64,000 nucleotides of DNA from Hyphomicrobiales bacterium (GTDB taxonomy: Bacteria > Pseudomonadota > Alphaproteobacteria > Rhizobiales > NORP267). Position numbers and translations under genes: made by a program. Under the pieces are notes generated by a model that searched no databases, was not told where the DNA came from, and saw only the letters and a list, made by a program, of their open reading frames with translations. The DNA lies in contig JAJFHA010000007.1 of NCBI GenBank assembly GCA_021775875.1, forward strand, positions 1-64,000, given 5' to 3'. This document shows, in pieces, positions 7,319 through 60,170 of this stretch (its first letter is position 1; the number at the start of each line of letters is the position of its first letter).

Positions 7319-7466
7319 TCAAATTGCCATCTGTTTGTGATTTCGTGAATTCAATGTCGGAACAAAATACGGGCTACAACCGCTTCCTGGCCATTTCCAT
7401 GGCACCGATCGCTCTGGTTTCAATTTTGAAATAGCCTCGTCTACCAAATACCCGTTCAGGTTTAGA

Positions 7467-7512: not shown

Positions 7513-7700
7513 GTTGACCGGCGCAACGTCTTCATAATTCCGTTTGGAACAAAGTTGCCAGATCGCAACCCGGAACGTCATCAAACTATGAATGTCGATT
7601 TGGTCCTTGCTCTGCTTAGTTCGCGTACCGCGATTCATCAAGTCAGCAACCAATTGAGGCGGACCCTAGCCGGTTAGCGTCAATTTTCCAAGTGCAAAAA

Positions 7701-7720
7701 TACCACATTGTCAAAGAGAG
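7701..7720 (-). promoter_or_regulatory. second boxA-like sequence, outside any rRNA operon
   Basis: The minus strand reads CTCTCTTTGACAATGTGGTA. This matches the 16S-leader element at 525-544 in 18 of 20 positions, with the same flanking TGTGGTA. It lies just downstream of the prmC stop codon on the same strand, so it would be in the prmC-to-DUF4167 transcript. No -10 hexamer is found at the right distance, which argues against a simple promoter. It may be an antitermination site or a spacer relic. Confidence 0.4.
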
Positions 7721-7755
7721 TGAACCACACACATTTCCATCCTTCCAAAATCAAA

Positions 7756-12586: not shown

Positions 12587-12673
12587 TTTCGAGCTTCCTC
12601 TCTATGTGCCAGACAATCTGGCAAGTAAAGTGTAATCAATGATCCAAACCTCGCAGGCCGCCAAGCGGATCGT

Positions 12674-13933: not shown

Positions 13934-14058
13934 CGGCGACCATAAATCCTCGTGTTGCAAAAATTTCGCCGGTACCAACCAGCGCTTATTTGGTGTAGTC
14001 CTGAATGGACGGAGACTTCATAGCCCCATAGCGGATACACTGCAAAGAAAAAGGCCAA

Positions 14059-14838
14059 ATGATGAATAGCCGCAGTACAATTGACCTCGCTGAAGTCGCA
14101 CGCTTCTCAGCGCTCGCCGACGAATGGTGGGACCCGCACGGCAAGTTCAAGCCCCTGCATAAATTCAATCCGGTCCGCCTCGCCTATATTCAGGAAAAAA
14201 TTTGCGACCAATTCAACCTGGTTGAAGGCACAAATGCTGTTTTCAAGGGTCTGCGGATTCTGGATATCGGCTGCGGTGGCGGCTTATTATCGGAACCGAT
14301 GTCGCGGCTTGGTGCCGAAATTGTTGGTGCCGACCCGTCACGGGTCAATATCGAAACTGCCCGCATCCATGCCGAAAGCCAGGGTCTGGATATTGATTAT
14401 CGTTGCACCACTTCGGAAGAACTAGCGGCGGCCGGGGAGACATTTGATGTTGTCCTGAATATGGAAGTGATCGAGCATGTGGCCGATCCGGCTTTATTCA
14501 TCGAATCCTGTGCCACTATGGTGCGCCCCGGCGGGTTGATGATTGCGGCCACCCTCAACCGTACCGTGAAGGCGTTTGCGCTCGCCATCGTTGGCGCAGA
14601 ATATATTTTGCGCTGGTTGGCGCCCGGCACCCACACCTGGGACAAATTCATAACGCCGGAAGAATTCAACGAATTTCTCACCCCGACCAAACTGCGCCGC
14701 ACCGATTTAACCGGTGTCGCCTATAACCCGCTGGCCGATAGCTGGCGACGGACAAGCGATGTGGATGTGAATTACATGATCACCACGACGCGGAAAAAAT
14801 CTTCGGCCAGCAAGAAATCCAGCAAAGCCAAAACCTAA
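14059..14838 (+). CDS. ubiG: ubiquinone biosynthesis O-methyltransferase
   Basis: A 259-residue class I SAM methyltransferase that performs both O-methylations in ubiquinone synthesis. The UbiG signature is clear: [26 protein letters not shown] near the N-terminus, SAM-binding [20 protein letters not shown], and MEVIEHV. The C-terminus is a Ser/Lys-rich tail ([13 protein letters not shown]). It is divergent from lysC, the usual alphaproteobacterial pairing, and overlaps the convergent DUF1178 gene by four bases at its 3' end. Confidence 0.97.
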
Positions 14839-44837: not shown

Positions 44838-45413
44838 ATGGCCACAAAAACAAAAAAACCCGTTCAACGCCAAGGCTTTCGCACCAAGGAATTTGTTGTT
44901 TACCCGACCCATGGAGTCGGTCAGATCACTGATATCGAAGAACAGGAAGTGGCGGGCACCAAGCTCGAACTTTTCGTTATTCAGTTTGAAAAAGACAAGA
45001 TGACCCTGCGGGTCCCTACCAACAAGGCGCAGAATGTCGGCATGCGGAAACTGTCTGACGATGCTCTTGTCGATAAGGGGCTCAACACTCTCAAAGGCCG
45101 TGCCCGGGTCAAGCGCACCATGTGGAGCCGCCGCGCTCAGGAATATGAAGCCAAGATCAATTCCGGCGATCTGATTTTTATTGCCGAAGTAGTTCGTGAC
45201 CTGCACCGGATGGATAGCCAGCCAGAGCAGTCTTATTCTGAACGCCAGCTTTACGAAGCAGCCCTTGATCGCATGGCCCGAGAAGTTTGCGCTGTACGCA
45301 AGTTGAGCGAAACAGAGGTTATCGCAATCATCGAGGATATTCTGATCAACAGCCCGAAACGGGCACGCGCGACCCAGACATCTGAAGACGGCGAAAGCAG
45401 CGCTGCCGCGTAA
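44838..45413 (+). CDS. carD: CarD/CdnL family RNA polymerase-binding regulator
   Basis: A 191-residue transcription factor. The N-terminal RNA polymerase-interaction Tudor-like domain (about 15-75; EFVVYPTHGVGQITDIEEQEVAGTKLELFVIQFEKDKMTLRVPTNK) is followed by a helical DNA-binding domain (WSRRAQEYEAKINSGDLIFIAEVVRDLHR, SYSERQLYEAALDRMAREV). CarD/CdnL proteins stabilise open complexes, notably at rRNA promoters. GGAG lies about 12 bases before the ATG. A strong terminator follows. Confidence 0.96.
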   Translation: MATKTKKPVQRQGFRTKEFVVYPTHGVGQITDIEEQEVAGTKLELFVIQFEKDKMTLRVPTNKAQNVGMRKLSDDALVDKGLNTLKGRARVKRTMWSRRAQEYEAKINSGDLIFIAEVVRDLHRMDSQPEQSYSERQLYEAALDRMAREVCAVRKLSETEVIAIIEDILINSPKRARATQTSEDGESSAAA

Positions 45414-45464
45414 AACCAAATTTTGTCACGGAATTACAACGCAAAATTTCAATGCGAATTTTCA

Positions 45465-45490
45465 GGGGTCCGGTTTTCCGGGCCCCTTTT
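45465..45490 (+). terminator. rho-independent terminator of carD
   Basis: GGGGTCCGG (45465-45473), loop TTTT, CCGGGCCCC (45478-45486), then TTTT. This is a nine-pair GC-rich stem with one G-U pair and a U-run, 51 bases after the carD stop. The convergent M48 gene ends only seven bases beyond it, so it may serve both directions. Confidence 0.85.
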
Positions 45491-45496
45491 CATTGC

Positions 45497-46987
45497 CTAT
45501 TCAGCGATAATCTTGACCGACTGACCGGCTGTCAGTCTCGAATTGGCGGTAAGCCCATTCAAGATACGAAATTGCTCAAGGGCATTGTCCTTGATCACCA
45601 TCCGACGTGCCATGCTCCGCTGGTTATCGTTCGCGCCTACCTGTACTGTCCTGATCCGTAGCGGGCGTGCCTGCGCTGCTTGCTCCGCGCTCAAAGAACG
45701 TAAACTATTGACCGTGCTGCGAAATCCGTCTTCAAGCGAAACATCAATATCGCGTGCAGCCAGCAAAAACCGGAACACTTTATCAGGCGCGAACCGAACC
45801 GCCGCAAGACGGTAATTCCAGCCACCATGACGAGCGGCACCAAAAATAGCGTCCATGACGCCAACATGGCCGGGCACCATATCCTGCACAGTGACGCCGC
45901 GCGCCCATACATTGCGAACAAAGCGTTCCAGAGATTGGCGCGGCGGAATGTCAATTCCATCAAATCTCATCGCGCTGCCATCAGGCCCAAGCACAAACAC
46001 CGCGTCGGATGAATTTTGTAGATTAAAGCCTTCGGGAACATCAAACGCAAACCGGAGATTTGGATGCAGGAAGGTCCGGTCCCGAATAAAACCTTCGCGC
46101 GGATCATCACCAAAGAGCAGCCCGTCGATCAGTGAGAGAAACGCGTCGCGCTGGCGTGGCCGGGCCCCCTCGGCGATACCGAAACTACCGGATAATTCCA
46201 ACACTTTGGCAATCCGGTCCGGGGTTGAAGGGTGGGAAGCCATGAAACTTGCTTCTGAACTTCGGTTTTCCTGACGCAAGAGCTGTTCGCGATGCTCGCG
46301 GTCTTCACGCATGGAATCGAGAAATGTTGCCGCACCATAAGGATCGAACCCGGCCTGAACCGCAGTTTCAAGTCCAATTTGATCGGCTTCGAATTCCTGC
46401 TGCCGGGAGAAACTTGCAAACATGCTGCGGGACGCCAGAATAGCACCGGCTGCACGTACAGGATCTCTCAAAGCCTGTTGGGCAACCCGGCCAACAACAG
46501 CGATTGTCGACGCCTGACTTTCACGTTTTGCGGCGTGTCGCGCAGACACATGACCCATCTCGTGGGCCAAAACTGCAGCGATTTCATCCCGGTCGTTGGA
46601 AAGCGCCAAAAGCCCGCGCGTCACATAAAGAAACCCACCCGGCAAGGCAAACGCATTGACCGACGGGGTATTCAGAACCGTCAATTGATAATCAATATCA
46701 GGGCGTGGTGAAACCCGCGCCAACCGGTCTACAATCTCATCAAGCCCACGTTGCATTTGCTGGTCTTGATAGGCACCACCAAAGGCTGCCACGATGCGCG
46801 GATGTTCCCGCGCGCCAACACGACGCTCGCGGGCTTCGCTGATCAGCGGCAGGTTATCTTCAAACCCGAACCCCTGGTCAGAACCCCCAGCCCCCGCACA
46901 TGCCGCAACCAGCAGCATGAAAAAGCTGGCCTGGACTAGCTTCAGCCAGCGACCGGCCTGGGCAGAAAATCGAATACGCCTGTACAT
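45497..46987 (-). CDS. M48 family metalloprotease lipoprotein (BepA-like) with C-terminal LysM-like domain
   Basis: A 496-residue predicted lipoprotein (lipobox LLVAACAG near residue 30). The M48 peptidase domain (about 75-260) contains the zinc motif HEMGH in EIAAVLAHEMGHVSARHAAKRESQ, the third ligand region QQEFEADQIGLE, and MASHPSTPDRI. The C-terminus resembles a LysM-like module (LRIRTVQVGANDNQRSMARRM and NGLTANSRLTAGQSVKII). Relatives degrade misfolded outer-membrane proteins. ATG at 46987 with AGGA upstream is preferred to a TTG 13 codons earlier. It is four bases after the nuclease gene. Confidence 0.9.
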   Translation of the reverse strand: MYRRIRFSAQAGRWLKLVQASFFMLLVAACAGAGGSDQGFGFEDNLPLISEARERRVGAREHPRIVAAFGGAYQDQQMQRGLDEIVDRLARVSPRPDIDYQLTVLNTPSVNAFALPGGFLYVTRGLLALSNDRDEIAAVLAHEMGHVSARHAAKRESQASTIAVVGRVAQQALRDPVRAAGAILASRSMFASFSRQQEFEADQIGLETAVQAGFDPYGAATFLDSMREDREHREQLLRQENRSSEASFMASHPSTPDRIAKVLELSGSFGIAEGARPRQRDAFLSLIDGLLFGDDPREGFIRDRTFLHPNLRFAFDVPEGFNLQNSSDAVFVLGPDGSAMRFDGIDIPPRQSLERFVRNVWARGVTVQDMVPGHVGVMDAIFGAARHGGWNYRLAAVRFAPDKVFRFLLAARDIDVSLEDGFRSTVNSLRSLSAEQAAQARPLRIRTVQVGANDNQRSMARRMVIKDNALEQFRILNGLTANSRLTAGQSVKIIAE

Positions 46988-46991
46988 GAAT

Positions 46992-47849
46992 TCAATTTCC
47001 TGTCGAACCAGTTGCAACAATTTCAATCTGTTCCGGATGCGTCACTGTGATCATAGGGCCACCGCGTTCCTCAATCCACCCACGAATTCTTACAATTTTA
47101 CCTTCAAGCGAGGCAAGGTCGAGCCCGGCACCAGAAAAACGTCGCGCGTCCCGTGCCGAGATCGACCCGGTAAAATCATCGCGCCAATTTTGGCCAAAAT
47201 TAAGGTAGACCCGCCGGTTCACCGCCTGGACCGATACAATACGCCCCTCGATGAGTTGAAACGTATCGACGAATTCCAGCAATGCCGCAGGTGGAAGGGC
47301 CGCCAGAACCGGATAAAACGGATCATTCCAGATACCGCGCTGATCATTGCGAGCGGCCTGTTCCAAAGCTTGCAGTTCGCGAACGCATTCCCTGTTATCC
47401 TTGAACGAATAGGTCCGCGCCAATCCGCGACCAATCATGTCGCCCTGCACCCAAAGCCCGGAATCATCATTTCCAACAAAAGCATGCGCCAACGTTCTCC
47501 CGTGACGGTCCATCGTTTCTCCACCGTGATAAAGCGTAACACGTTCATTCAGCACAAGGTTGGAAAGAGCGGCTTTTGCTTCGTCACCAAGCGGCCAGGG
47601 GGGGAAATTGGGACGCCCAAGCGGCAATTTCGGTGCCTGCATCCCCACAAGACGCACCTCCAGCCCACCAGCCAGGCGAATGGTATCGCCATCAATCACC
47701 TCAACCACGTTTCCGGAAACACCGGCCGTTAGATCGCAGCTTGCCAGAGCGGCTTGAATTGGTGCCAGAGCAAGAATGAAAACAACCCAGATTGCTCTGT
47801 AGCAAATTCCTAAAGCCAAAGAACAAACGGTACGCAAAAATCCATCCAT
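46992..47849 (-). CDS. exported thermonuclease (SNase-like) family protein
   Basis: A 285-residue protein with an N-terminal hydrophobic signal (about 12-38) and a staphylococcal-nuclease-like domain. It has VVEVIDGDTIRLAGGLEVRLVGMQAPKLPLGR and DRHGRTLAHAFV, with Asp and Arg residues in catalytic-like positions. A second OB-like segment follows (about 195-280; IEGRIVSVQAVNRRVYLNFG). It may cleave nucleic acids or only bind them. ATG at 47849 has GAGG five bases upstream; a TTG five codons earlier also opens the frame. It is coupled to the M48 gene. Confidence 0.87.
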   Translation of the reverse strand: MDGFLRTVCSLALGICYRAIWVVFILALAPIQAALASCDLTAGVSGNVVEVIDGDTIRLAGGLEVRLVGMQAPKLPLGRPNFPPWPLGDEAKAALSNLVLNERVTLYHGGETMDRHGRTLAHAFVGNDDSGLWVQGDMIGRGLARTYSFKDNRECVRELQALEQAARNDQRGIWNDPFYPVLAALPPAALLEFVDTFQLIEGRIVSVQAVNRRVYLNFGQNWRDDFTGSISARDARRFSGAGLDLASLEGKIVRIRGWIEERGGPMITVTHPEQIEIVATGSTGN

Positions 47850-47891
47850 GTAACCCTCACACAAGGTTCAAGCCTTGATTCACCAGGAGGT

Positions 47892-47959
47892 TGGTAATCC
47901 CGACAGGATTAGAATCTGTGAACCATGCTGTGAGACCATTTGCTGGAATGTCGGGGACC
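47892..47959 (-). pseudogene. tRNA-like relic, possible attachment-site remnant
   Basis: On the minus strand this 68-base stretch begins GGTCCC and ends CGGGATTACCA. The first six bases and 10 of the last 11 are the same as in the intact tRNA-Arg(CCT) gene at 53215-53291, in the same orientation. A T-arm is visible (ACAGA, loop TTCTAAT, CCTGT), but its closing pair is A-C instead of G-C. The acceptor has a C-C mismatch at its base, and no proper D-arm or anticodon arm remains. I read it as a decayed tRNA or att site; chance resemblance cannot be excluded. Confidence 0.4.
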
Positions 47960-48027
47960 AGGAGAAAGCAATCAAAAAAGCCTTATCGCACTAAAAGCGA
48001 TTTCAGCCTTCGGGACCACCATACAAA

Positions 48028-49104
48028 CTAACTCGAGATGCCAGACATATTTCTAACCTTTACGGAACGAATGGTGCGTTTTGCCATTTCGATATCCATC
48101 TCGGCATAATATTTCTTGACCTTAGCTACAGTCGCAGAATCTTGTTTAAGCCTCTTTCGCCTCAATTCAGCGATGGCCGCAAAGGTGTTTTCAGAAAGAT
48201 TGCTTATTCGGCATAGAATGACGATGGGCTGATTGTCAGGTTTCATCAACGCGTTTATGACTTGTTGCTCAGGAATATTACAAATTCCAGCGAGAATAAA
48301 GCCTATATCAAGGGGCCTGTTTTCTTCACAAAGCAGCTCGATAGATGCATCGAGTTCCCTTTTCCCGTCCACAATTTCCTCAAGAATAACATTGGCTTTA
48401 ATTTGTTGTTTCTCAGATTTTTCAGTCATTTCTTTTGATTGCTGGCGTGCCTTATTTATTAGGTCTTCGACAACCATTTCGCCCTGAATTTCCGAAATCT
48501 CCAGCAGTCTTGCCCGAGCTTCAGGAGACATGAGGGGTATAACCGTGGTTACAATTGATACCGGCACATCTGAACGTCGCGAAAACAGATCACATAATGC
48601 CTGATCATCTTTCACATTTTCAGCTAATATTCTAAATCCGTTCATGGAAATTTCTGCGTCAATATTGCTACAAACGGATTGGAGAACAGGTTTCTCTTCA
48701 TGTGTCAGGAGTGCGTCGGTGACCTGAGCTGTAAGATTAGCTCGCTTTGAAATTGCCAGGCGATGCTGTTCGGTATGCCCATTGGCAATTTCCACCAACT
48801 CTTTATCAGATAAAACCTCGGAATGCCGAAGTATCGGGTCAGCGACATCGATATCTTGAATTGCAAGCAATTGCAGCAAATCGCCCGGCGCTTTGTTTAT
48901 TGGTGCTATGGCAGTTGATACATTTTTTTTTGTTGTATTATCTACATTTTCAATCAGTTTGCTCAGAACTTCTCCAAATAGAAAAACTTCCCGATCGCTG
49001 TAATTTTCACTGTTATCTACAAAAAGATTAGTAATTTCACTTATCAGTTTGCGCCGCTCGTCGCTGGATCCTCCCTTTGCAAGAGCTTCTAACTGGTCAA
49101 ACAT
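48028..49104 (-). CDS. DUF2336 family protein
   Basis: A 358-residue, all-helical, highly charged protein of the DUF2336 family, found mainly in Alphaproteobacteria. It contains repeat-like helical pairs (LLQLLAIQDIDVADPILRHSEVLSDKELVEIANG, HRLAISKRANLTAQVTDALLTHEEKPVLQSVCSN). There is no signal peptide or membrane segment. ATG at 49104 is preferred (GGAG upstream); a TTG seven codons earlier would overlap the upstream gene by four bases. It follows the GGDEF/EAL gene as an apparent operon, suggesting a link with c-di-GMP signalling. The molecular role is unknown. Confidence 0.8.
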   Translation of the reverse strand: MFDQLEALAKGGSSDERRKLISEITNLFVDNSENYSDREVFLFGEVLSKLIENVDNTTKKNVSTAIAPINKAPGDLLQLLAIQDIDVADPILRHSEVLSDKELVEIANGHTEQHRLAISKRANLTAQVTDALLTHEEKPVLQSVCSNIDAEISMNGFRILAENVKDDQALCDLFSRRSDVPVSIVTTVIPLMSPEARARLLEISEIQGEMVVEDLINKARQQSKEMTEKSEKQQIKANVILEEIVDGKRELDASIELLCEENRPLDIGFILAGICNIPEQQVINALMKPDNQPIVILCRISNLSENTFAAIAELRRKRLKQDSATVAKVKKYYAEMDIEMAKRTIRSVKVRNMSGISS

Positions 49105-49121
49105 AACTCCGTCTCCATTCT

Positions 49122-52100
49122 TCAAACTCCGTCAGCGTTCAATATATTATCAAGCGCAGGAACATCCGGAGTTGACGTAAAAATGCCTTTGTAAGCCTTG
49201 CTCTTTATCCAATTGGTCATGGCGTCAAAATTCATAGGTTTGGCCACAAAATAACCCTGGATTGAGCTATTGCCGATAGAAGCAATGGAATCCCACTGTT
49301 GCTGGGTCTCGACGCCTTCACAGACAACACGTAAATCCATTAATTTTGCCATTGAAATCAGGGAAGTAACGATGCCCTGCTGCTTTTGGTTGTTGATCAT
49401 CTGATAGACGAATGACCGGTCTATTTTCAAACCATTGATCGGCATTGTGGATAAATGAGACAAGGACGCGTAACCCGTCCCGAAATCGTCCAGTTCAACA
49501 TGGATCCCCCGGGCTACAAATTGTTTGAGAATATGCAGGATATTGGCATTTGGATCGTCGAATATAAACGACTCCAGAAATTCCACCGTCAGATAACGTG
49601 GCTCAACCCCATGTTTTTCCATGCTGTTGAAAAAATCATCCAGAAAACAGCTCTTTCTCAGGTGTTGTGGCGAGAGGTTGATCGCCAGCCTGCCAAAATC
49701 CACACCTTCTTCCTTCCAGTTTTGAATGGCCACCATGGCATAGTCGAAGACCTTGCACCCCATGGCAGGCGCCAATCCGGTTGCTTCCGCCACTTCCAGG
49801 AATTCACCAGGTCCAAGTACGCCACGGTCTGGATGGTTCCAGCGCAGCAAGGCTTCAAGCCCGGTGATGGTTTCATCGTTGACGTTCAATTGTGGTTGGA
49901 AATAAAGCTCAAGCTGATCCTCTTCGATCGCAATTCTCAGTTCCTGCTCGATCCTGGATTCTGTATCGATTCTCTCCTTCATTTCGGTTGTGAAGAATTG
50001 ATAGCCGTCGCGGCCAAGTTCCTTGGTCTTGTAAAGCGCCAGGTCGGAAAATATCATCAACGATTCAAGATCCAGCGCATCTTGCGGGTAACGCGCCACG
50101 CCAAGACTGACAGTCGGCCGCAAAATGGTTTTATCATATTGCAATGGGATAGCGACCAGGTCAGTTAATTCTTCACAGATGACTGCCAGATCCTGATCAC
50201 CCTCACACTCGACGAGTGCAACAAACTCGTCACCCCCCCATCGATAGGACTTGAAATTGGCAAACTCGCTGGCCAGCATGTTCATCCGCCCTCCCAGCGT
50301 CGTCAACAGATGGTCGCCGGCGGCATGGCCCAATGTATCATTTACCCGTTTGAAATTATCGAGATCGATCTGAATAATGGCAAAGCCCCGGCTAGGATCC
50401 GCCTCGGCGAAAAGTTCGTTCAAGTCTTTTTTACAATGCGCCCGGTTGGCAAGTCCCGTCAATTCATCGAAATAGGCGATGACTTCAAGCTGATCCTTGG
50501 CGTCCTGCAATTCCGCCTCTCGCGCGCGGTGAGCGGTAACGTCAATAATTGTAGTGTGAATTACATTATTTTCCAGAACCCGTTCCACAACCACAATTTG
50601 TCGGCCATCAGCCAGCCCAAATTCTTTTTCCGCTATTTTGGCCCTGCGACGAAAAGACTTCTGTTTCTGCAACCAGTCTTTCTTGTCCAGGCCATCCAAA
50701 TTCCAGATTCCGTTATCAAAACCAACGGACATCAAGTCTTCGAACGCCACTCCTTCCACAATCATATCCCGGATGGACGAGTGAAAACCCCGATAGGCTT
50801 CGTTGGCCAGTATCAACCGGTCATTTGCATCCCATATGACAAAGCCATTGCTCATCGAATTGATCGATGAGACAAGATGCTGATGAGCTTGATCCTGGGC
50901 CATTTTTGCCTGGCGCAAATCCCGCGCGATAATGGTGGCCTCATTTGACTTGTCTTTTAGGGCAGTCAGCATGTCTTCCGCTTCGGTAATGTCCATATAA
51001 GTCGTTATAAATCCGCCGCCCGGCAGAGGCCAACCCTTGATCTCCAGATGCATGCCATTGGATGCGATTCTCTTGAAAGAGTGTTTTTCGAATTTCTTCG
51101 CGAGGTCAGATCTTTCACCGACAAGTGTTTCTACATCGCCCTCGCCATATTCGCCGCGCTCCGCATTGTATCTTATGATCGCTTCATAAGATGTCCCAAC
51201 AGGAAGCAAATCCTCCGGCAATTCCAGCAAATTATAAAAGGCCGGATTGGCTTGTTGCAAAATCAGTTCCTTGGTGAAAACACTGATGCCGCCAGGAAAA
51301 TTGTCGAATGTTGAAGTTAATATATTCAGGTTGCTATAGAGCTCAATTTCAGCATTCTTACGATCCGTAATATCGTTTCTGAGCGAAATATACTGGACAA
51401 CCTTGCCGGTCGCATCCTGGAATGGTGTGATAGTTGTTTCCACCCAATAATGTGACCCATCCTTGGCGCGGTTTTGGATATCGCCATACCAGGTCCCACC
51501 ATTCGCGATGGTTTTGTACATATCGGTAAAGAAAGATTTTGAGTGGTGACCTGAGTTCAATAGGCGGTGATCAAGGCCCAACAACTCGTCCCTGTCATAC
51601 TTTGAGATTTCGCAGAACTTGTCATTGACATAGGTAATGCGGCCCTTGGTATCAGTCATCGCAACGATTGCGTGTCCGTATTCAATTAGATTGTGGGAAG
51701 CTGCCAAGATTAGATCTGCGCCAGCATCTTCCAGGGCTTTCTCCATTCGTGTTTTTGCTTTCCGCTGCTTGATCACGGACCCCAAAGCAGGAGATACTAA
51801 CTTGAGAAATCCAGCGTCAATCTCACTGGGCTCATACCCGAGTTCGGGATACAGTGTCATGACACCCTGAATATTTTTTGTTCCGTCCAGAAGAGGCACA
51901 TTATAATATGCATGCGGTGTCATGCCCGCGAAGCTGATGTCGCAATTATCGTCTGCGCTAGGGGTGAACTGGATATCCTTGTTTAGGACTGTTTCACCAC
52001 GTATAAAACAGGGGTAAGCCTCATTGGCACAAAGGCCGTGCAATTCGGGAGTAAGCTGGCGAGTGGCAGCAAGGGCCAAAGCGCCAGTTTTTTCTTGAGA

Positions 52101-52271
52101 AAGAAAAATTGCCCCCTTTTTCAAATTATGTAGATGTGATCCTGAAAATACAGCATCGAGGGCCTGCGCCAGAACTTCTTTGCAGTTTAGCTCCGAGAAT
52201 GACAACTGCGCGATCGCGTTGACCGTGCGCTGAACATCGAGAGCTATTTGTATTTGATTTTTTTTCGTCAT
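49122..52271 (-). CDS. GAF-PAS-PAS-PAS-GGDEF-EAL cyclic di-GMP enzyme
   Basis: A 1049-residue cytoplasmic signalling protein. It has an N-terminal GAF domain (about 1-170), three PAS regions (about 190-310, 315-435 and 460-590), GGDEF (about 600-765) and EAL (about 780-1035). The GGDEF site is intact (RWGGDEFVAL; DLDNFKRVNDTLGHAAGD); no RxxD inhibitory site precedes it. The EAL residues are also present (EALLRWNHP, INLSPQ, ELDDFGTGYASL, LKIDRSFV, CEGVET, QGYFVAKP). Both synthesis and hydrolysis of c-di-GMP are therefore possible. It is the first gene of a pair with the DUF2336 gene. Confidence 0.95.
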   Translation of the reverse strand: MTKKNQIQIALDVQRTVNAIAQLSFSELNCKEVLAQALDAVFSGSHLHNLKKGAIFLSQEKTGALALAATRQLTPELHGLCANEAYPCFIRGETVLNKDIQFTPSADDNCDISFAGMTPHAYYNVPLLDGTKNIQGVMTLYPELGYEPSEIDAGFLKLVSPALGSVIKQRKAKTRMEKALEDAGADLILAASHNLIEYGHAIVAMTDTKGRITYVNDKFCEISKYDRDELLGLDHRLLNSGHHSKSFFTDMYKTIANGGTWYGDIQNRAKDGSHYWVETTITPFQDATGKVVQYISLRNDITDRKNAEIELYSNLNILTSTFDNFPGGISVFTKELILQQANPAFYNLLELPEDLLPVGTSYEAIIRYNAERGEYGEGDVETLVGERSDLAKKFEKHSFKRIASNGMHLEIKGWPLPGGGFITTYMDITEAEDMLTALKDKSNEATIIARDLRQAKMAQDQAHQHLVSSINSMSNGFVIWDANDRLILANEAYRGFHSSIRDMIVEGVAFEDLMSVGFDNGIWNLDGLDKKDWLQKQKSFRRRAKIAEKEFGLADGRQIVVVERVLENNVIHTTIIDVTAHRAREAELQDAKDQLEVIAYFDELTGLANRAHCKKDLNELFAEADPSRGFAIIQIDLDNFKRVNDTLGHAAGDHLLTTLGGRMNMLASEFANFKSYRWGGDEFVALVECEGDQDLAVICEELTDLVAIPLQYDKTILRPTVSLGVARYPQDALDLESLMIFSDLALYKTKELGRDGYQFFTTEMKERIDTESRIEQELRIAIEEDQLELYFQPQLNVNDETITGLEALLRWNHPDRGVLGPGEFLEVAEATGLAPAMGCKVFDYAMVAIQNWKEEGVDFGRLAINLSPQHLRKSCFLDDFFNSMEKHGVEPRYLTVEFLESFIFDDPNANILHILKQFVARGIHVELDDFGTGYASLSHLSTMPINGLKIDRSFVYQMINNQKQQGIVTSLISMAKLMDLRVVCEGVETQQQWDSIASIGNSSIQGYFVAKPMNFDAMTNWIKSKAYKGIFTSTPDVPALDNILNADGV

Positions 52272-53214
52272 CGTCTGTTTGGCAATCCATGCAAGTATGC
52301 TTGTTCGGTCAATCCTTTGAGAAGACGGCGAGCACTGAGAGATTGAGGCAATGTCATGTCTTCACCAAAACCATTGTTTGTCGTTCAGCTATTGGAAATC
52401 CAGTATTAAATAGCGATGTCGCTTGGCTGATATAGGCAGCCAATCTGATAAAAATTTTCAGAGTCATCTTCTGAACAACCTCATTTAGGTAATTTGTTTC
52501 TGAGCTTCTGACCGACATCAATATTTTCGTATCGAAAAGTAGTTTTCGTTTACACGGTTACGGTCCAAGATACGTCCGTTGTGCACCCACCAATTTCGCT
52601 TTCAGCTGTTAGGACGTTGATTTCTATAACAAATTTTTTATTGAAATAAGACATTACGAAACCCTATAAATTTAAAATAATCAGTTTACGGAAATTTATA
52701 TAAAAAATAATAATAATTTGTAAAACAATGTCATTTGATGAGAGGTTGTTTATACTACAAATATACTGTATTTTATATTTTTATAAGGGTAATGTTTTTT
52801 ATATTTCTTAAAAATGATCGAGATCCAGCCTCATAACCGATAGCTGATGATAGCTACGACGCGACGGAATCCCTTGAGCCTGCCAAACATTCTCTCGACA
52901 ACGTTTAGGTGTCTGTAAAGCTCCCGAGAGAAACAGTTTTTCAACAGTATTGGCAATTAGAAAACTCTGTACACCTGTACACAAGAGTGCTGTTTTTCAC
53001 CAGAAAACGGTCCTGTTCGCCTATCCATTGAATCTGCTTGATCAAGTATAAAAAATTTATCGACGCATTTAACGCCATTATACTTGTAAATTGAGTCCAA
53101 TAGTTTGGTGAAACTGGCAACCCACCTAGGTGCGGTGAGAATGTATATGTACGTTGGACCTTATTTGAACTCTGGAATCAATATCTCTAAAAACTCTTAA
53201 ATAATTGATTTTAT
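52272..53214. other. 943-base AT-rich gene-poor region
   Basis: This lies between the GGDEF/EAL gene and tRNA-Arg. Visibly richer in A/T than the flanks, with runs of ATAATAATAA and TTTATATTTTT type around 52620-52810. It holds a transposase relic (52831-52950) and a tandem octamer CTGTACAC twice (52967-52982). One minus-strand frame (about 52960-53160) is open for some 65 codons but lacks a start codon and family resemblance. No intact gene is supported. Confidence 0.7.
52831..52950 (-). pseudogene. IS5-family transposase, C-terminal relic
   Basis: The minus-strand translation gives LLKNCFSRELYRHLNVVE followed by RMFGRLKGFRRVVAIISYRL and a stop at 52831. This closely follows the conserved C-terminal catalytic-Glu region of IS5-type (IS427-like) transposases (xRxxxYRxRNxVERxFxRLKxFRRIATRYDK). 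The Glu of VER is the expected E of DDE. A stop codon interrupts the frame just upstream, and the DD-containing part is missing. It is a decayed mobile-element fragment in AT-rich DNA. Confidence 0.7.
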
Positions 53215-53291
53215 TGGTGATCCCGGCGCGATTCGAACGCGCGACCCCCAGATTAGGAATCTGGTGCTCTATCCAACTGAGCTACGGGACC
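53215..53291 (-). tRNA. tRNA-Arg (anticodon CCT)
   Basis: The minus strand folds as a standard tRNA. Acceptor GGTCCCG pairs with CGGGATC (one G-U), the D-arm contains AGCTCAGTTGGATAGAGC, the anticodon stem-loop is CCAGA TTCCTAA TCTGG with anticodon CCT, and the T-arm is GCGCG TTCGAAT CGCGC. CCA is encoded. Total 77 bases. It is intact and probably functional, reading AGG. Its 3' end faces the AT-rich accessory segment, as expected for an integration target. Confidence 0.97.
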
Positions 53292-53394
53292 TGAAATGGT
53301 TTTTAGCCGGTACGTGTGGGACCAGACAAGCGCCAAATTCAATTTCAAACACGGTCACACGGTCACACTCGGGGGCTATCCGATACCGGTTGTT

Positions 53395-53433
53395 TTGTTC
53401 GGGCGGGTGTAATTTTCGCACCCGCCCGAACAA
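53395..53433. terminator. 15-bp perfect hairpin between cyclase gene and tRNA
   Basis: TTGTTCGGGCGGGTG (53395-53409), nine-base loop, then the exact reverse complement (53419-53433). It lies six bases past the stop codon of the cyclase-family gene on the minus strand, so it probably ends or protects that mRNA. On the minus strand an A-rich rather than T-rich stretch follows, which is unusual for an intrinsic terminator. Confidence 0.6.
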
Positions 53434-53438
53434 TCTCC

Positions 53439-54572
53439 CTATTGTCCCGGCGCACCAATCGCAACCGGGCGCACAGGCGAACCTGAATGACCGCGCGACA
53501 GCAACGGCAGCACAATGGTGCATGACGTCCAGACATTGTCAGCCGCCAGCGCCGTCAGATTGGCATTCTGGATCTGATGAATCCCGGATACTGCCAGATT
53601 TTGATGATGGATCGCAAATGGCAAGCCGTCATCCATGCCGTTTGGTGGCATTGCCTGGCCCTGGAATTGGCCTTGGGCCACCGGATCGGTAAACGGATTG
53701 TCCAGCGCCACCAGCACCACGGCTTTTTCCTGCAAATAAGTGGCCGCATCGACGGCAAGCCCTGGTCCCATTGAATAATAGGTCTTGTCTTCATCCGGAT
53801 CAGCCCAGCCTTCGCCCCAACCGGTGTAGATGTAGACTACATCACCAGGCAGAATGCCGCGCCATCCCAAGCCCTGTGCTTCAAGCATCCCATCGATATC
53901 AGCCGCTGTGATCAATTGCCCCGGTGCCATGGCGTTACCGCCACCAAGAAACGCCTTGGCGTCCAGCAAAACGGCGGTCGTGATGATCGGCGGTACATTT
54001 TCAATGCCGAGCCGCAACAAAGATGAATCATCAGTCGGTTTCACATCTTCCTGGTTATAGCCGCCATAATAATGCGCCCCGGCAGCCGCGTTTTCACTTG
54101 AACCGTCCCAGGCATCATCCAGATAAGCAAAATGTCCGAGCGCATCCATCTGCGTACCCTGAGCTCCGGGTTCACCGCCGGTAACCTGCTCACCATTAAA
54201 AGCGTGGCGGGTGCCAGGCAACGTGACGGTTGGGGTGAACTCATATCCGAGCGGCCTGCCAAACGGTGACAGAGGCATCGTATTGGAACGCTCGTGGCTA
54301 ACTTCATATGATTTTGAATTGCCATTTGCCAGATGATAAGCGCAGCGCATCCAGGTGCCGTTGCCGATCGCATTTGCCATGCCGCGCTCATCGCCCGTTG
54401 GCCACGGTCCAGATGGCACCATGGCTTGAGATGCCGTGACAGCATTCATCTGCGCGTCCGACGCTGCACTCGCAACGCCAGATCCTGCGCCGGTCAACAC
54501 GAATGCCGCCACCCCTGTTAGCAGCAATTTTGTGAGCTGACTCCGGTCATTATTCTTTGTTCTAGTTTGCAT
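53439..54572 (-). CDS. exported cyclase-family (kynurenine formamidase-like) protein
   Basis: A 377-residue protein with a signal peptide (LLLTGVAAFVLTGAGSGVASA) and a cyclase/kynurenine formamidase-type domain. The metal motif HxGTHxDxPxH appears as AQGTQMDALGH: GT, D and the last H are kept, while the two earlier His are Ala and Gln. Other segments (GDVVYIYTGWGEGW, LAVDAATYLQEKAVVLVALDNPF, AIHHQNLAVSGIHQIQNANL) fit the family. Enzymes of this group hydrolyse amides or lactones with Mn or Zn. The substrate is unknown. It is monocistronic with a hairpin downstream. Confidence 0.88.
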   Translation of the reverse strand: MQTRTKNNDRSQLTKLLLTGVAAFVLTGAGSGVASAASDAQMNAVTASQAMVPSGPWPTGDERGMANAIGNGTWMRCAYHLANGNSKSYEVSHERSNTMPLSPFGRPLGYEFTPTVTLPGTRHAFNGEQVTGGEPGAQGTQMDALGHFAYLDDAWDGSSENAAAGAHYYGGYNQEDVKPTDDSSLLRLGIENVPPIITTAVLLDAKAFLGGGNAMAPGQLITAADIDGMLEAQGLGWRGILPGDVVYIYTGWGEGWADPDEDKTYYSMGPGLAVDAATYLQEKAVVLVALDNPFTDPVAQGQFQGQAMPPNGMDDGLPFAIHHQNLAVSGIHQIQNANLTALAADNVWTSCTIVLPLLSRGHSGSPVRPVAIGAPGQ

Positions 54573-54758
54573 GAACTTCCTCCGTGATTACGTTTTTTTG
54601 TTGCTGTTCGGCAATGACGCGCTGGTGCAACATCCCCAATTCCCTATAAAAGCTTTACATATGACCTTTTGTCCAGAATTTTACGCATGCCATGCAGGGT
54701 AGCGTTTGATAAATTTCCGGCTATGTTGGCGAACGGATCAACAAAATTGTCGAATCGC

Positions 54759-57446
54759 ATGAATTTCAGCAAACCCAATCAAAACCATAAAAAATCGCTT
54801 CCAAAGGCATTCCAGGTTCTTTGCCTGATAGCTATTTTTATCCTGGCCCTCGCCCTGAATAGCCCTGATGGTTTTGCCCAATCAGACAGCGAAAGCCAGA
54901 CGACACAACCAGCCAGCGAAACAGCCACCGAGACAAATCAGACATCTGATGCTGGTTCTGACGAAGTCCCCACATCAGTTGAAGAAAGCACACCCGCCGA
55001 AGACGCCGCGGTTGAAATTGCCGCCCCGGCGGATGCTCTACAGCTCAACGAAGCCGTTAGGCAGCGAATTGACGCAATCGAAAATCAAAGCAAACAGATT
55101 CAGGCTGCCCTTCAGCGCGAAAATCTTGACGACAAGCAACTCTCGGATTTGCGCAGCAAAATAACGGCGTTGCGTGAAGAAGCACAAGATATATCCCTGT
55201 CGCTTTCGCCTCACGTCCAAGCCGTGCAACAGCGTCTGGAACAACTTGGTGCGCCTCCCGGAGAAGGGGAAACGCCGGAAGCCCCTGAAGTTACCAAGGA
55301 GCGCGAACAACAGGCCGCCCTTCTCACAGAAATCAGCGGCGCGGTAACACGTACCAAATTGCTGGTTTTAACGGCCGGGCAAACCGCGACCGTGATCGCT
55401 GAGCGCCGCCGGACCTTTTATTCGGACCGTATTTTCGAGCGTCGGTTTTCAATTCTCGATCTCACCCTGTGGGAGAATTTTTCAGAAGCTGTTCCTGTCG
55501 CCATAGCCCGTTTCAATCTGCTGATTTCAGATTGGGCCGGATCCATCGGCGACAAGGCAGGGTGGGGATTTCTACTGATAAATCTGGCCGTCATCGCGTT
55601 CGCCGGTGTTTTGACAATGATCGTGCACCGCTCCACCAGGCGCTTTGAAAACAGGTCACACCGCCCGGCAGGAATTTCATCCCATACACGTATCACACAC
55701 GCGGCAGCCGTGGCGCTCGCCATCACGGCTATTCCAACTTTAACAGCGGTGGCTCTCTTTGGCGTGTTCGATACGTTCGACTTGTTGCCAACCCGTATCC
55801 GCTTGCTGGCTCAATCAGAAGTATTGAACATCACTTTGTTTTTTGGCGCGTTTGGCCTTTTGACGGCACTATTAGCGCCGCGTCGGCCTCATTGGCGGGT
55901 CGCGCATCTTGACGACGATCACGCCCGTAAATTGTTCCTTTTGATGATCTGTGCGGTTGGGGTTTTCGTTGTTGACAATTATCTGGACCGCCTCGGCACC
56001 ATCCTGTTCACACCGCTTGATCTGGCGATTGGCAAGGGTGCGATTGCCAGCCTGATCATCGCCTTCCTGTTTGCCCTGGTCGCCAGAAAAATCGGTAGCG
56101 CCGCGAATAATCCGGTCAAAGTGTCAGACACAATAACCGGAGCCTTGGCGCCCATCGCCACATCCACCCGTTGGCGCTGGCTGCAAATTGCCTGCTGGGT
56201 CGCAGTTATCGCAATTCCGGTCGCGGCCGTTTTCGGCTATCTGTCACTGGCACAATTCATCGCCACCGAAATTGTCATCGCAACCATCATCATGGGTGCC
56301 GCCGGTCTCACCATGCGGTTCGTAGATGCCATGCTGACGCGTGGCATGGGGCCAGGTGGTGTGCCAGGCTATGCCGAGCGACTGGGAAATACTTTAGGCA
56401 TTCGTCGCACCAGTATCGAACAAGGCGCCATCATCCTGAGCGGCCTGTTCCGCTTGTTGATAGCGTTGCTGGCCCTCTCGCTGCTCCTGATACCGTGGGG
56501 GTTCGAGACCAAAGATATCTTTGGTTGGTTGCGCCGCGCCTTTTTCGGCTTTTCCTTTGGCGAAATTTCCATCTCAATATCCTCGATCCTCCAGGCACTT
56601 GGTTTGTTTGTGCTTGGTATCGTGGCCACACGCGCGATCCAGCGCTGGCTGGAAGTGCGCTATCTGCCCCATACCAATCTGGATATCGGGGTCCGGGATT
56701 CCCTGAAAACAGCAACCGGCTATTTAGGCGTGATCATTGCCGCAACGGTCGGATTTTCGTTCCTAGGTTTCGATATGTCGAATGTAGCCATCGTCGCCGG
56801 GGCCTTATCGCTTGGGATCGGCTTTGGTTTGCAGAGCGTGGTCAATAATTTTGTCTCAGGACTTATTTTGCTCGTGGAGCGCCCCATCAAATCCGGTGAC
56901 TGGATCGTTGTAGGGGCAGATGAAGGCTATGTGCGTAAAATCAGCGTCCGCTCTACGGAGATCGAAACCTTCGATAATGCTACCGTCATTGTCCCAAATT
57001 CAAACCTGATCAGCGGCGTTGTGACAAACTGGATGCATGGCAACACCTCTGGCCGGATCAAAATTCCGATCGGTGTCGGCTATGGTTCTAACCCCGAAGA
57101 AGTGCAGGACATCTTGCTGGATATTGTAACAAATCATCCTGAAATTCTGAAAACCCCTGCCCCTCGGGTATATTTCCTGGATTTTGGCGACAGCGCCCTG
57201 TCTTTCGAAGTCCGCGCATATCTGAAGAATATTGATTTCGGGATGTCGGTGAAAAGTGATTTGCGCATCACAATGCTCAACAAACTACGCGCCGCAAATA
57301 TCGAGATTCCGTTCCCGCAACGCGACCTTCATTTACACTATGCCGACAAGAAATCTGAGCCTGCTGGTAAAACTTCTAAAGCCACGCCAAAGCGAACCCG
57401 CAAGAGAAAAGCCGTCCAGCCCATCATTCCGGACGGTAGCGAATAA
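54759..57446 (+). CDS. large MscS-family mechanosensitive channel (DUF3772-type N-terminus)
   Basis: An 895-residue channel with a signal peptide (FQVLCLIAIFILALALNS, ending FAQ). A Ser/Thr/Glu/Gln-rich stretch and a periplasmic coiled coil (about 90-220) follow, then several transmembrane helices and the C-terminal MscS pore and beta domain (about 650-850; LGIGFGLQSVVNNFVSGLILLVERPIKSGDWI, ETFDNATVIVPNSNLISGVVTNW). The end is Lys/Arg-rich. It releases solutes on hypo-osmotic shock. Start uncertain: in-frame TTG at 54669 and ATGs at 54687 and 54723 also exist; the chosen ATG directly precedes the signal peptide. Its stop overlaps the next ATG by one base. Confidence 0.9.
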   Translation: MNFSKPNQNHKKSLPKAFQVLCLIAIFILALALNSPDGFAQSDSESQTTQPASETATETNQTSDAGSDEVPTSVEESTPAEDAAVEIAAPADALQLNEAVRQRIDAIENQSKQIQAALQRENLDDKQLSDLRSKITALREEAQDISLSLSPHVQAVQQRLEQLGAPPGEGETPEAPEVTKEREQQAALLTEISGAVTRTKLLVLTAGQTATVIAERRRTFYSDRIFERRFSILDLTLWENFSEAVPVAIARFNLLISDWAGSIGDKAGWGFLLINLAVIAFAGVLTMIVHRSTRRFENRSHRPAGISSHTRITHAAAVALAITAIPTLTAVALFGVFDTFDLLPTRIRLLAQSEVLNITLFFGAFGLLTALLAPRRPHWRVAHLDDDHARKLFLLMICAVGVFVVDNYLDRLGTILFTPLDLAIGKGAIASLIIAFLFALVARKIGSAANNPVKVSDTITGALAPIATSTRWRWLQIACWVAVIAIPVAAVFGYLSLAQFIATEIVIATIIMGAAGLTMRFVDAMLTRGMGPGGVPGYAERLGNTLGIRRTSIEQGAIILSGLFRLLIALLALSLLLIPWGFETKDIFGWLRRAFFGFSFGEISISISSILQALGLFVLGIVATRAIQRWLEVRYLPHTNLDIGVRDSLKTATGYLGVIIAATVGFSFLGFDMSNVAIVAGALSLGIGFGLQSVVNNFVSGLILLVERPIKSGDWIVVGADEGYVRKISVRSTEIETFDNATVIVPNSNLISGVVTNWMHGNTSGRIKIPIGVGYGSNPEEVQDILLDIVTNHPEILKTPAPRVYFLDFGDSALSFEVRAYLKNIDFGMSVKSDLRITMLNKLRAANIEIPFPQRDLHLHYADKKSEPAGKTSKATPKRTRKRKAVQPIIPDGSE

Positions 57447-57970
57447 TGTTGGAAGCCAAAAAATCTGTCCCGTCCCGCTTTTTTGCAGGACTGGTTTTTG
57501 CCGGTCTGCTTGTCGTCGGTGGATGCGGCCAGAATTCTGGCGAACCGGAAATTTATCAAAGCCTGGCCGCCGGCAACGTCCAGCTAAATGCCAACGAAGC
57601 CCGCGGAATTATCAACCAATACCGCCAGTCTCTTGGTCTTGCCAATCTGGCCCTTGATCCGGTTCTGATGGCGGAGGCCGACCGGCACGCCCGCGACATG
57701 GCAACCCACGATGAGGTTGGCCACAATGTATCCTCCCGCGGCGGGTTTGCGGCGCGAACCCGGGGTGCGGGAATACAACGCACTCACGCTGCGGAAAATG
57801 TTGGTGCAGGATACCATACCATCGCTCAGGCATTTTCCGGCTGGCGGGGAAGTCCCAACCATGACCTGAATATGCGCAGTTCTGAGAGCCGCCGGATGGG
57901 GATCGCGGCAGCCTATAATGCCCAAAGCAAATACAAGGTTTTCTGGGTCCTGATTGTCACCAGCGACTGA
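57446..57970 (+). CDS. CAP-domain (SCP/PR1) lipoprotein
   Basis: A 174-residue predicted lipoprotein (lipobox VVGGC near residue 27) with a CAP domain: LNANEARGIINQYRQSLGLANLALDPVLMAEADRHARDMAT, HAAENVGAGYHTIAQAFSGWRGSPNHDLNMRSSESRRMGIA. Bacterial CAP-domain proteins are exported, with mostly unknown roles. It is coupled to the MscS gene (TAATG), so the channel and this lipoprotein are made together. Confidence 0.88.
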   Translation: MLEAKKSVPSRFFAGLVFAGLLVVGGCGQNSGEPEIYQSLAAGNVQLNANEARGIINQYRQSLGLANLALDPVLMAEADRHARDMATHDEVGHNVSSRGGFAARTRGAGIQRTHAAENVGAGYHTIAQAFSGWRGSPNHDLNMRSSESRRMGIAAAYNAQSKYKVFWVLIVTSD

Positions 57971-57982
57971 TCAGGATCAAAA

Positions 57983-58915
57983 TCAGGCCTCTTTGCCGGT
58001 CTGGTAATAGTAATTTGCCTTACGCCCAAACAGCAGCCCACGCAAAAAGCGCCGCGACCGTTCGCTTTGGCGAAACGGTTCGATCATGGCGCGGCTAAGG
58101 GAATAACCCGCCACTTTGATATTGTCCCACATGGGATGAACCCCCGGGGGTGATTGCGGCAATCCAACCTTGCGCATCATGCCGTTGGCAAACAGCAATT
58201 TGTTGTTGCGGACAATTTCATCGGTCTTCCAGGTGATCGCCATGGAAATCGTGAATTCTTCTCCGGATTTCACCCAATGCGGCCAGATATAGGGCAGGAA
58301 AATCCCCTGCCCTGGCTCCAGTTCATAAACCGTTCCAAGCTCTTCGATATTGTCCACATAAGCATGGTTGCGATGCTTGCCCGGATAGCTCTCAAGACCA
58401 GCATCCGAGACCACTTCACGGTCGCGATTTTCAAACGCATGAAAATCCTTTCGGCCACGTAATTGCACAAACAAATTCTGCTCATTATCCGTATGGAACG
58501 CAGTAGTAGAATGAGCCGACGACACAAAGATAAACCCCTGCGCGTCTATCATACCTGCATCGTGGCGCGATTTAAGACCGGCTGCACGTGCCCCGGAATC
58601 CAATGCATCCTCAACTAATTTCCGGTATTCCGGGATGGTTTCAACATTTTTCAGGACCATCCAGGCACCGCAATCTTCAATCTGCCGGATCACCTCAACA
58701 GGCTCCAGATCGATATGCTTGATATCTTCAAAACTCTGGTTCGGCCCGGTATCACCGGAGCTATATTCAAACTGGTCGCGGTCCATCTTCAGCGCCAGAT
58801 CAATCAGCGCCGGTAGCTGCAATAACGGATGATCACTAAGGCTGTGGCTTGTCTGGAAAGACGTATCCTGGAACTTGTCTTTGGCGTCTTTCGGGAACGT
58901 GATCATTTCAACCAT
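57983..58915 (-). CDS. JmjC/cupin-like protein, possible Fe(II)/2-oxoglutarate oxygenase
   Basis: A 310-residue soluble protein with a cupin_8/JmjC-like core. A metal-binding HxD is seen in AFHTDNEQNLFVQLRGRKDFHAF, and a distal His in LPYIWPHWVKSGEEFTISMAITW. These would bind Fe(II) in a hydroxylase. The N-terminal part contains DLEPVEVIRQIEDCGAWMVLKNVE, and the C-terminus is basic (RQSERSRRFLRGLLFGRKANYYY). It is the last gene of an operon with a flippase and an acyltransferase; its start overlaps the acyltransferase gene by eight bases. A sugar, lipid or peptide could be the substrate. Confidence 0.75.
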   Translation of the reverse strand: MVEMITFPKDAKDKFQDTSFQTSHSLSDHPLLQLPALIDLALKMDRDQFEYSSGDTGPNQSFEDIKHIDLEPVEVIRQIEDCGAWMVLKNVETIPEYRKLVEDALDSGARAAGLKSRHDAGMIDAQGFIFVSSAHSTTAFHTDNEQNLFVQLRGRKDFHAFENRDREVVSDAGLESYPGKHRNHAYVDNIEELGTVYELEPGQGIFLPYIWPHWVKSGEEFTISMAITWKTDEIVRNNKLLFANGMMRKVGLPQSPPGVHPMWDNIKVAGYSLSRAMIEPFRQSERSRRFLRGLLFGRKANYYYQTGKEA

Positions 58916-60170
58916 GATGGCTTTCCTTCTTCAGTTTATTGTACAAAATTTTGAGTCTTGACCGCGCTTCCCGTCGCGACTGTTCCAACCATTCAATCAG
59001 ACGACCCGGAACCAGGCCGCCACGGGTAGTGATCAGCAAATCGGTCACCCCGAGCCGTTCGCGCCAGATCCGGTCGATCATTGGGTGATCTGGCATGGCG
59101 CAGGAATCCGTACTGACTATGCTTTCGTCTTCAATTAGATGTCGGGTCACGTCGAGCACAAGCAGCACGCCCGGCGAATATTTCGCCAGGGTTTCATCAT
59201 AGGCGATCTTCCACATCCAGCCGGTATCCTGGCTGGTCACGATCAAGGTTGTGGCGATCACCTGGCCATCAAGGGTCATTTCGTCAAACCGGCATTGTCC
59301 GGCCTCCGCCAGCCCTGAAATAGTTTCTTCAAAAAATGATTTCCAATCGTCGCGGCACGCCATGGCGGTGTCTCGTTCGCCCTTCCACCCGGCCATTTCC
59401 AGATCGAGAAACCGGTGCGTGGCGTCCTTGATATCCGGGGCAGTTCGGCAAATCCGGAAATCAACCTCACCCATATCCGACAACCTGTTGCGCAAGCGCC
59501 GATATTCTTTTGAGCGTTTGTTACCAAGCGATTCCCGGAGATATTCATCCCCCGGCATGTTGGTCTCAAGCTTTGCCCGAACATGTTCGTCATAATGGCG
59601 CATGCCCATTCCCTGCTCTGCCATTGTTTGGCAAAACAGGTCGTGTACCCGGCCCTTGATCAATTTTGTAAAACGCAGAAATCGGGGTGCCTGATTGTCT
59701 GTCCGCAGCCAGGTCACAAAAGCAGCAATAGCCGGTTGGGCCATCTGCCGGTCAACAAGCGGGGTCCCGTCGAAAGAATATAGATGCTCCCAGATCACCG
59801 CAGCGCGGACCGGGATGCCCCACCGTCCTTTGGAATTTTGCATCGGGAAAAATGCCAGCAACTTGCGCGGTGATTGTTCACCTTCCGCCTGTTGCCAGAC
59901 AAGAGCTGCACATCCTTGGCCGCCATCTTCCAGATGCCGGATCGCGGCACGGGCCATTTCCGGCACCATATTAATATTAGCGTCAAGCGCACGTTCCGCG
60001 AGATCAGACCAGGCATCCTGAAACCCGGCAAATGCCGCAATATCAAGAACAAATTCAACCTCAAATGCAGCTTCACCATCAAGGCCGGCTGACGCTGAAC
60101 GCGTAAATTCCGCTCTGTCCGGCTCATGGGCTTCGCGCATCAAAATCGTATCTTCGGCTATGGTCGTCAC
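58908..60170 (-). CDS. BioF2/FemAB-like GNAT acyltransferase
   Basis: A 420-residue protein of the GNAT_6/BioF2-like group related to FemAB and to CelD-type proteins of polysaccharide loci. The N-terminal half has FVLDIAAFAGFQDAWSDLAERALDANINMVPEMA and AAVIWEHLYSFDGTPLVD. The C-terminal acyltransferase half has KRSKEYRRLRNRLSDMGEVDFRI, FLDLEMAGWKGERDTAMA and TLDGQVIATTLIVTSQDTGWMWKIAYDETLAKYSPGVLLVLDV. It probably attaches an acyl or aminoacyl group to a glycan or lipid precursor. It overlaps the flippase stop by four bases and the next gene by eight. Confidence 0.82.
   Translation of the reverse strand: MTTIAEDTILMREAHEPDRAEFTRSASAGLDGEAAFEVEFVLDIAAFAGFQDAWSDLAERALDANINMVPEMARAAIRHLEDGGQGCAALVWQQAEGEQSPRKLLAFFPMQNSKGRWGIPVRAAVIWEHLYSFDGTPLVDRQMAQPAIAAFVTWLRTDNQAPRFLRFTKLIKGRVHDLFCQTMAEQGMGMRHYDEHVRAKLETNMPGDEYLRESLGNKRSKEYRRLRNRLSDMGEVDFRICRTAPDIKDATHRFLDLEMAGWKGERDTAMACRDDWKSFFEETISGLAEAGQCRFDEMTLDGQVIATTLIVTSQDTGWMWKIAYDETLAKYSPGVLLVLDVTRHLIEDESIVSTDSCAMPDHPMIDRIWRERLGVTDLLITTRGGLVPGRLIEWLEQSRREARSRLKILYNKLKKESHHG

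Follow-up and report, generated by a model that had tools for sequence, protein, structure and literature searches.

Between about 47.89 and 53.21 kb, the 64,000-nt window analysed here (contig JAJFHA010000007.1 of a Hyphomicrobiales bacterium, genome G000) contains a segment that is likely, with a probability of roughly 0.8, to be the degenerate remnant of an island attached at the 3' end of a tRNA-Arg(CCT) gene. This reading is based on the intact tRNA gene at one end of the segment, a tRNA 3' fragment of like orientation at the opposite end, the meeting of the two flanks at a single tRNA in a relative of the same genus (G002) and the deviant composition of the DNA in between. An intact tRNA gene together with a worn 3' scrap of the same tRNA is the usual footprint of an old inserted mobile element. 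The two ends of the segment and the genes that flank it are as follows.

46992–47864, minus strand: left-flanking gene for a staphylococcal-nuclease-like protein (Pfam SNase), syntenic in relatives.
47892–47925, minus strand: displaced tRNA-Arg(CCT) 3' fragment (T-arm, 3' acceptor strand and CCA), in the same orientation as the intact tRNA, at the segment end on the nuclease side.
53215–53291, minus strand: intact tRNA-Arg(CCT) (ARAGORN; Rfam tRNA, 68.3 bits), with its 3' end facing the segment.
53439–54572, minus strand: right-flanking putative cyclase gene (Pfam PF04199), syntenic in the genus.

Transfer RNAs were called with ARAGORN and the Rfam covariance model, protein families were assigned with Pfam and PHROGs, and DNA was compared by BLAST. 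Only two genomes of the same genus (G001 and G002) were available for comparison; a third, G003, is a relative at the level of the family. The tRNA-Arg(CCT) gene reported in the initial annotation was recovered by both tRNA methods, is the sole tRNA that ARAGORN finds in the window and is identical to the G002 copy over 77/77 nt. The flanks, previously described as conventional, are so by Pfam and by their synteny with G002; the nuclease protein has 86% amino-acid identity to its G002 counterpart and 70% to that of G001, and the cyclase protein 91 and 82%, respectively. On G002 contig 14, which apparently corresponds to JAESRU010000067.1 of the metagenome-assembled genome NORP267, the nuclease gene (732–1598), an intact tRNA-Arg(CCT) (1632–1708) and the cyclase gene (1849–2955) have the order and strand of the window flanks. 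The nuclease and cyclase genes are 250 bp apart there, and the single intact tRNA between them lies where the fragment sits in the window. BLAST matches between the window and G002 cover 46264–47914 and 53215–61152, with none in between. The search for a relative that lacks the segment, proposed earlier as a check, was thus positive: the matches stop at 47914 and restart at 53215, and G002 represents a site without the segment, with its flanks joined at one tRNA, a state that may be due to secondary loss. The presence of the same genes at this place in all relatives, which had been named as evidence against an island, was not observed in G001 or G002; the latter has neither the GGDEF–EAL nor the DUF2336 gene of the segment at the site, and the former carries a different block that includes a partly related PAS gene.

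Positions 47892–47925 match the 3' end of the G001 tRNA-Arg(CCT) at 28/34 positions without gaps, which is the top place on both strands of the window; in the same scan the intact tRNA of the window scored 27 and the next-best place 21. Against the window's own tRNA the fragment has 23/34 identities and is the best other place, followed by one with 21. In a control with 100 sequences from a first-order Markov model of the window, scored as the maximum over five tRNA-Arg(CCT) 3' ends, the highest value was 25, compared with 28 for the fragment. Furthermore, an ungapped alignment of the nuclease flank places window position 47892 on position 1632 of the G002 contig, where the intact tRNA has its 3' end.

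The whole of 47892–47959 had been described as a decayed tRNA-like copy. The same-orientation 3'-end likeness at 47892 stands; as judged from the alignments, what derives from the tRNA is a 3' piece of ∼34 nt (47892–47925) and not a whole decayed tRNA. A local alignment of 47892–47959 with the window's own tRNA involves the last 23 nt only (18/23) and is unremarkable, with 25 of 2550 partly overlapping 100-nt windows sorting above it, and the end-to-end score is reached at 22 of 31,966 sampled positions, 15 of which overlap the tRNA itself. The GGTCCC motif that had been taken for a shared tRNA 5' end was rejected as such, since it lies within a different relic.

47953–48022, plus strand: start of a multi-copy gene for a small secreted peptide, present as a relic (leader and signal peptide; start codon and frame lost), just inside the segment.

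This relic resembles the starts of secreted-peptide genes on contig 23 of G000, with 76% identity over 70 nt to positions 112–182 and a further match of 66 nt to positions 349–414. Contig 23 encodes two tandem, near-identical 58-aa secreted peptides at 130–543, for which no Pfam family scored above its cut-off. Contigs 6 and 28 have, at their ends, copies of a 122-nt stretch that surrounds the secreted-peptide gene start; these genes therefore probably break the assembly.

The T-arm of the fragment (ACAGA-TTCTAAT-CCTGT) can be compared with ACAGG/CCTGT in G001 and G003 and with GCGCG/CGCGC in the window gene, G002 and G004. We surveyed 41 tRNA-Arg(CCT) rows, with the window's own gene excluded and one tRNA of other length (locus L133) left out; ACAGG/CCTGT occurs in five of them and GCGCG/CGCGC in three, or in four and two (G002 and G004) of the 39 rows that remain after doubles of G001 and G002 are dropped. 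At acceptor position 70 the fragment has A, like the window and G002 genes and unlike that of G001, and the T3–A70 pair is not rare (12/41 rows). A GCGCG stem that decayed at random is unlikely to end up as a largely paired stem of the type seen in the relatives. On the evidence of these alignments, therefore, the fragment and the working gene descend from different alleles and are not a copy and its decay. The T-arm of the supposed copy had been called damaged; a mostly paired T-arm is indeed kept, and its departures from the working gene reflect the relatives' allele type and not decay of today's gene. Different alleles would be expected had the gene been restored, on integration, from sequence carried by the element, and the fragment is a probable fossil of such an exchange of tRNA 3'-end alleles.

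We lean slightly towards a history in which the insertion preceded the split of G000 and G002, and G002 then lost the segment and kept the new T-arm. An insertion in G000 only, with the cross-over between the T-arm and the acceptor end and with the T-arm of the fragment derived from the element, also fits and is less favoured. It is conceivable, although we would sooner doubt it, that a mobile element permanently rewrote the T-arm of the tRNA-Arg(CCT) of G000 and G002, the ancestral T-arm surviving only in the fragment and G002 having lost the element while keeping its version. In that case, alleles of an otherwise conserved tRNA gene would be replaced through element traffic.

Between its ends the segment contains the following features.

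48028–49125, minus strand: DUF2336 protein gene, 365 aa, GC content (guanine plus cytosine) 42% (Pfam PF10098, E = 9.8e-44, 150.2 bits compared with a cut-off of 34.6).
49122–52271, minus strand: PAS–GGDEF–EAL gene, 1049 aa, with several PAS domains (Pfam GGDEF, 7.5e-34; EAL, 8.5e-61; PAS_7 in two stretches; PAS_9).
52272–53214, no strand: AT-rich non-coding DNA (∼34–39% GC) that adjoins the tRNA.
52858–52944, minus strand: C-terminal relic of an IS5-family transposase (tblastn; PHROG 4716 transposase, E = 6.8e-6).

Pfam thus bears out the two genes named in the initial annotation, a cyclic di-GMP (c-di-GMP) enzyme gene and a DUF2336 gene, and the AT-rich DNA with a transposase relic was likewise found, the relic being of the IS5 family by tblastn and PHROGs. 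It has 71–76% identity over 28–29 aa to plasmid transposases, several of which are annotated as IS5 family, and was without a match in Pfam; among four long frames in the AT-rich DNA, it alone gave a family match (in PHROGs), and Pfam gave none. At the DNA level, 52272–53214 has no match among plasmids, and in G000, G001 and G002 its matches are to itself and to a single 80-nt stretch (78%) on contig 39 of G001.

The composition of the segment is foreign relative to the 64-kb window, the only frame of this comparison. By tetranucleotides, as suggested earlier as a check, the largest distance among 148 slides (0.318) belongs to 48001–53200; the highest value among the 121 slides free of overlap with 47892–53291 is 0.180. 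In 500-nt windows the GC content is 42–51% over the segment genes and 34–39% in the tRNA-proximal kilobase, compared with 54–57% in the immediate flanks (46.0–47.7 and 53.3–54.5 kb); values of 45–49% also occur at 44.0–45.0 kb. The GC content at third codon positions (GC3) is 0.385 in the DUF2336 gene and 0.498–0.589 in nine other genes of the window.

An island of this kind would have formed when a tyrosine integrase inserted an element and split the tRNA-Arg(CCT) gene, which would have been restored with element-borne sequence while the other 3' end was moved to a place beside the nuclease gene. Later deletions would have removed the integrase and most of the cargo, and an IS5 element would have arrived and decayed. 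The Islander rules for islands in tRNA genes (PMC4383910) agree with the side on which the segment lies and with the orientation of the fragment. The shared features are an intact tRNA at one end, a downstream 3' fragment in the same orientation, an insert-free site in a relative and deviant composition; the insert-free site is a criterion that we add to the Islander filters. The window segment differs in that it fails the integrase test given there, no integrase gene having been found, and an Islander-type search would probably miss its fragment, which has diverged to 23/34 identities with its own tRNA. We therefore call the segment a relic and not an active island, in line with the earlier view of an old island that has lost its integrase, which the insert-free site of G002, the deviant composition and the failure to find an integrase all support. 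Although invisible to covariance models and weak against the tRNA of its own genome, the fragment is recognizable by synteny and by the tRNA alleles of relatives, an approach that helps to find old islands. The biology is otherwise ordinary, the allele mismatch and the flipped orientation of the tRNA (see below) being its unusual parts. Among the titles listed in a literature search on tRNA-Arg islands in Alphaproteobacteria/Rhizobiales and on tRNA integration, none describes the locus.

Several observations weigh against an island origin. Neither an integrase nor a recognizable relic of one was found in the two genes (Pfam), in seven antisense or minor open reading frames of 72–237 aa (Pfam) or in the four AT-rich frames (Pfam and PHROGs). 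The GGDEF–EAL gene is compositionally mild, with a GC3 of 0.530. The tRNA covariance model gave no match at E ≤ 5 in 45000–56000 and none at E ≤ 10 in 47870–47980; scoring of 47892–47959 at background level is the very outcome that the initial annotation had named as speaking against its proposal. A purely coincidental likeness at 47892–47959, with the segment being ordinary chromosomal DNA, would accommodate this result, the unremarkable score against the window's own tRNA and the assignment of the GGTCCC end to another relic. We consider it very improbable nonetheless, given a match to the G001 allele that none of the 100 random windows equalled, a position that aligns without gaps with the intact G002 tRNA, a T-arm that is mostly paired and matches relatives' alleles, and the G002 comparison, which already contradicts it. 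The orientation of the tRNA is a further difficulty. Among 80 nuclease loci from named genomes, 33 have a tRNA-Arg(CCT) in the available stretch, 27 upstream (0.03–8.8 kb) and six ∼5 kb downstream; of the 27 upstream tRNAs, 26 are divergent from the nuclease gene, the exception being the record of G002 itself, and in the window the two are also co-directional. A separate scan of 29 loci found nine with this tRNA, seven divergent and two co-directional (G002 and G004). The tRNA is thus flipped relative to the nuclease gene in the lineage of the window, and simple integration leaves the flip unexplained. Joint inversion of the tRNA and segment was set aside, since the PAS and cyclase genes share one direction in both G000 and G001 and only the tRNA therefore appears to have flipped. 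A duplication or local rearrangement without an integrase, with a copied and inverted tRNA, decay of one of the two copies and entry of the genes between them through IS5 or homologous exchange, would agree with this orientation, with the IS5 relic and the failure to find an integrase, and with the rearrangement of tRNA-Arg loci seen in a phosphate-transporter gene that is beside tRNA-Arg(TCT) in G000 and near tRNA-Arg(CCT) in G001. It is nevertheless improbable: nothing but a 3' piece of the tRNA survives, its side and orientation are those that integration predicts, and its T-arm is of a different allele.

The strongest competitor to the island reading, to which we give somewhat less than even odds, is that the cyclase–nuclease interval may have held a PAS sensor gene since the ancestor of the genus and that recombination between the 3' repeats of the tRNA removed it from G002. 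In G001 this interval is occupied by a block of ∼9.7 kb encoding a PAS-kinase, an M24 peptidase, an HpcH/CitE-type lyase, a phosphate transporter and a coiled-coil protein, with the tRNA at the nuclease end in the common orientation. The PAS-kinase gene lies in the same interval and direction as the GGDEF–EAL gene, and the best match of its PAS module in G000 is the GGDEF–EAL gene (52%, 294 bits; next match 212). The tRNA of G002 also has the GCGCG T-arm of G000 and not the allele of the fragment. However, the outputs and the neighbouring genes differ in G001, a search of the G001 block revealed no displaced tRNA fragment, and in G003 the tRNA lies directly between MscS and the nuclease gene. 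Long residence is compatible with a still older island origin, and its odds overlap with those of the island reading.

The PAS–GGDEF–EAL gene overlaps the start of the DUF2336 gene by 4 nt, which suggests that the two probably form a transcription unit. From its domains and the presence of the GGDEF and EAL motif letters, the larger product is probably a PAS-sensing c-di-GMP synthase/phosphodiesterase; in domain order and motif letters it is like known bifunctional PAS–GGDEF–EAL proteins. At a threshold of E ≤ 1e-40, 41 of 249 genomes of the order, counting that of the window, encode a relative of the DUF2336 protein. We examined the neighbourhoods of 32 of the 40 loci outside the window (6/14 of one set and 26/26 of the other), with the upstream side shortened to 0–0.6 kb by a contig end in four (L057, L199, L218 and L221), and none has a GGDEF–EAL relative within ∼1.5 kb of the DUF2336 gene. 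For one of these loci, the DUF2336 gene of G001, a second contig with its start also shows no GGDEF–EAL relative upstream. Of the signalling cassette proposed earlier, the two overlapping genes are present as described; their adjacency is unmatched in the 32 loci, and the pairing is, as far as these neighbourhoods indicate, local and not a conserved cassette.

Plasmid searches gave no candidate donor, as no close plasmid relative was found for either gene: the 701 plasmid records matching the GGDEF–EAL protein are all below 60% identity (27–28% in the eight listed), and the DUF2336 protein matches nine Bradyrhizobium plasmids (24–31% in the eight listed). The best-scoring relative of the GGDEF–EAL protein in ten other genomes, from another family (G019), has 58% identity over the C-terminal half. 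In G002, a diverged relative is present as a 236-aa piece at the end of contig 67 (3–722, 68%), with a transposase gene (Mu-type/rve domains) after it. Another, on contig 103 (∼8185–8530), is decayed and consists of a PAS piece joined to an EAL-end piece with a stop. For DUF2336, a sequence search of the PDB gave no convincing relative (best E = 0.023) and a literature search gave no papers in the collection covered.

A second displaced tRNA fragment is found on contig 145 of G002, where positions 984–1031 are an exact 48-nt 3' fragment of tRNA-Arg(TCT), by comparison with the G000 gene. It adjoins a phosphate-transporter gene, which in G000 follows the intact tRNA-Arg(TCT), and ARAGORN finds no intact tRNA in this 8-kb stretch of G002. 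The case is like that of the window in being a displaced 3' fragment of a paralogous tRNA gene in the same genus; it differs in its exact identity, and hence is probably recent, unlike the diverged fragment of the window. The contig ends ∼1 kb from the fragment, inside the presumed island and before any integrase or the other island end comes into view, so that an assembly fault is possible. If the fragment is real, tRNA-Arg 3' ends seem to have served as island sites more than once in the genus. The phosphate-transporter gene (Pfam PHO4) is located at 12599–14119 of the G001 locus (L072), near tRNA-Arg(CCT), and at 7369–8934 of a locus on G000 contig 3 (L226), next to tRNA-Arg(TCT), and this shift in position suggests rearrangement at tRNA-Arg genes in the genus. 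Together these loci point to tRNA-Arg genes as points of insertion and rearrangement in a Hyphomicrobiales genus known from metagenome-assembled relatives. Finally, a long hairpin at 53387–53440, between the cyclase gene and the tRNA and just past the cyclase stop codon, is probably the cyclase terminator; G002 has the same hairpin.

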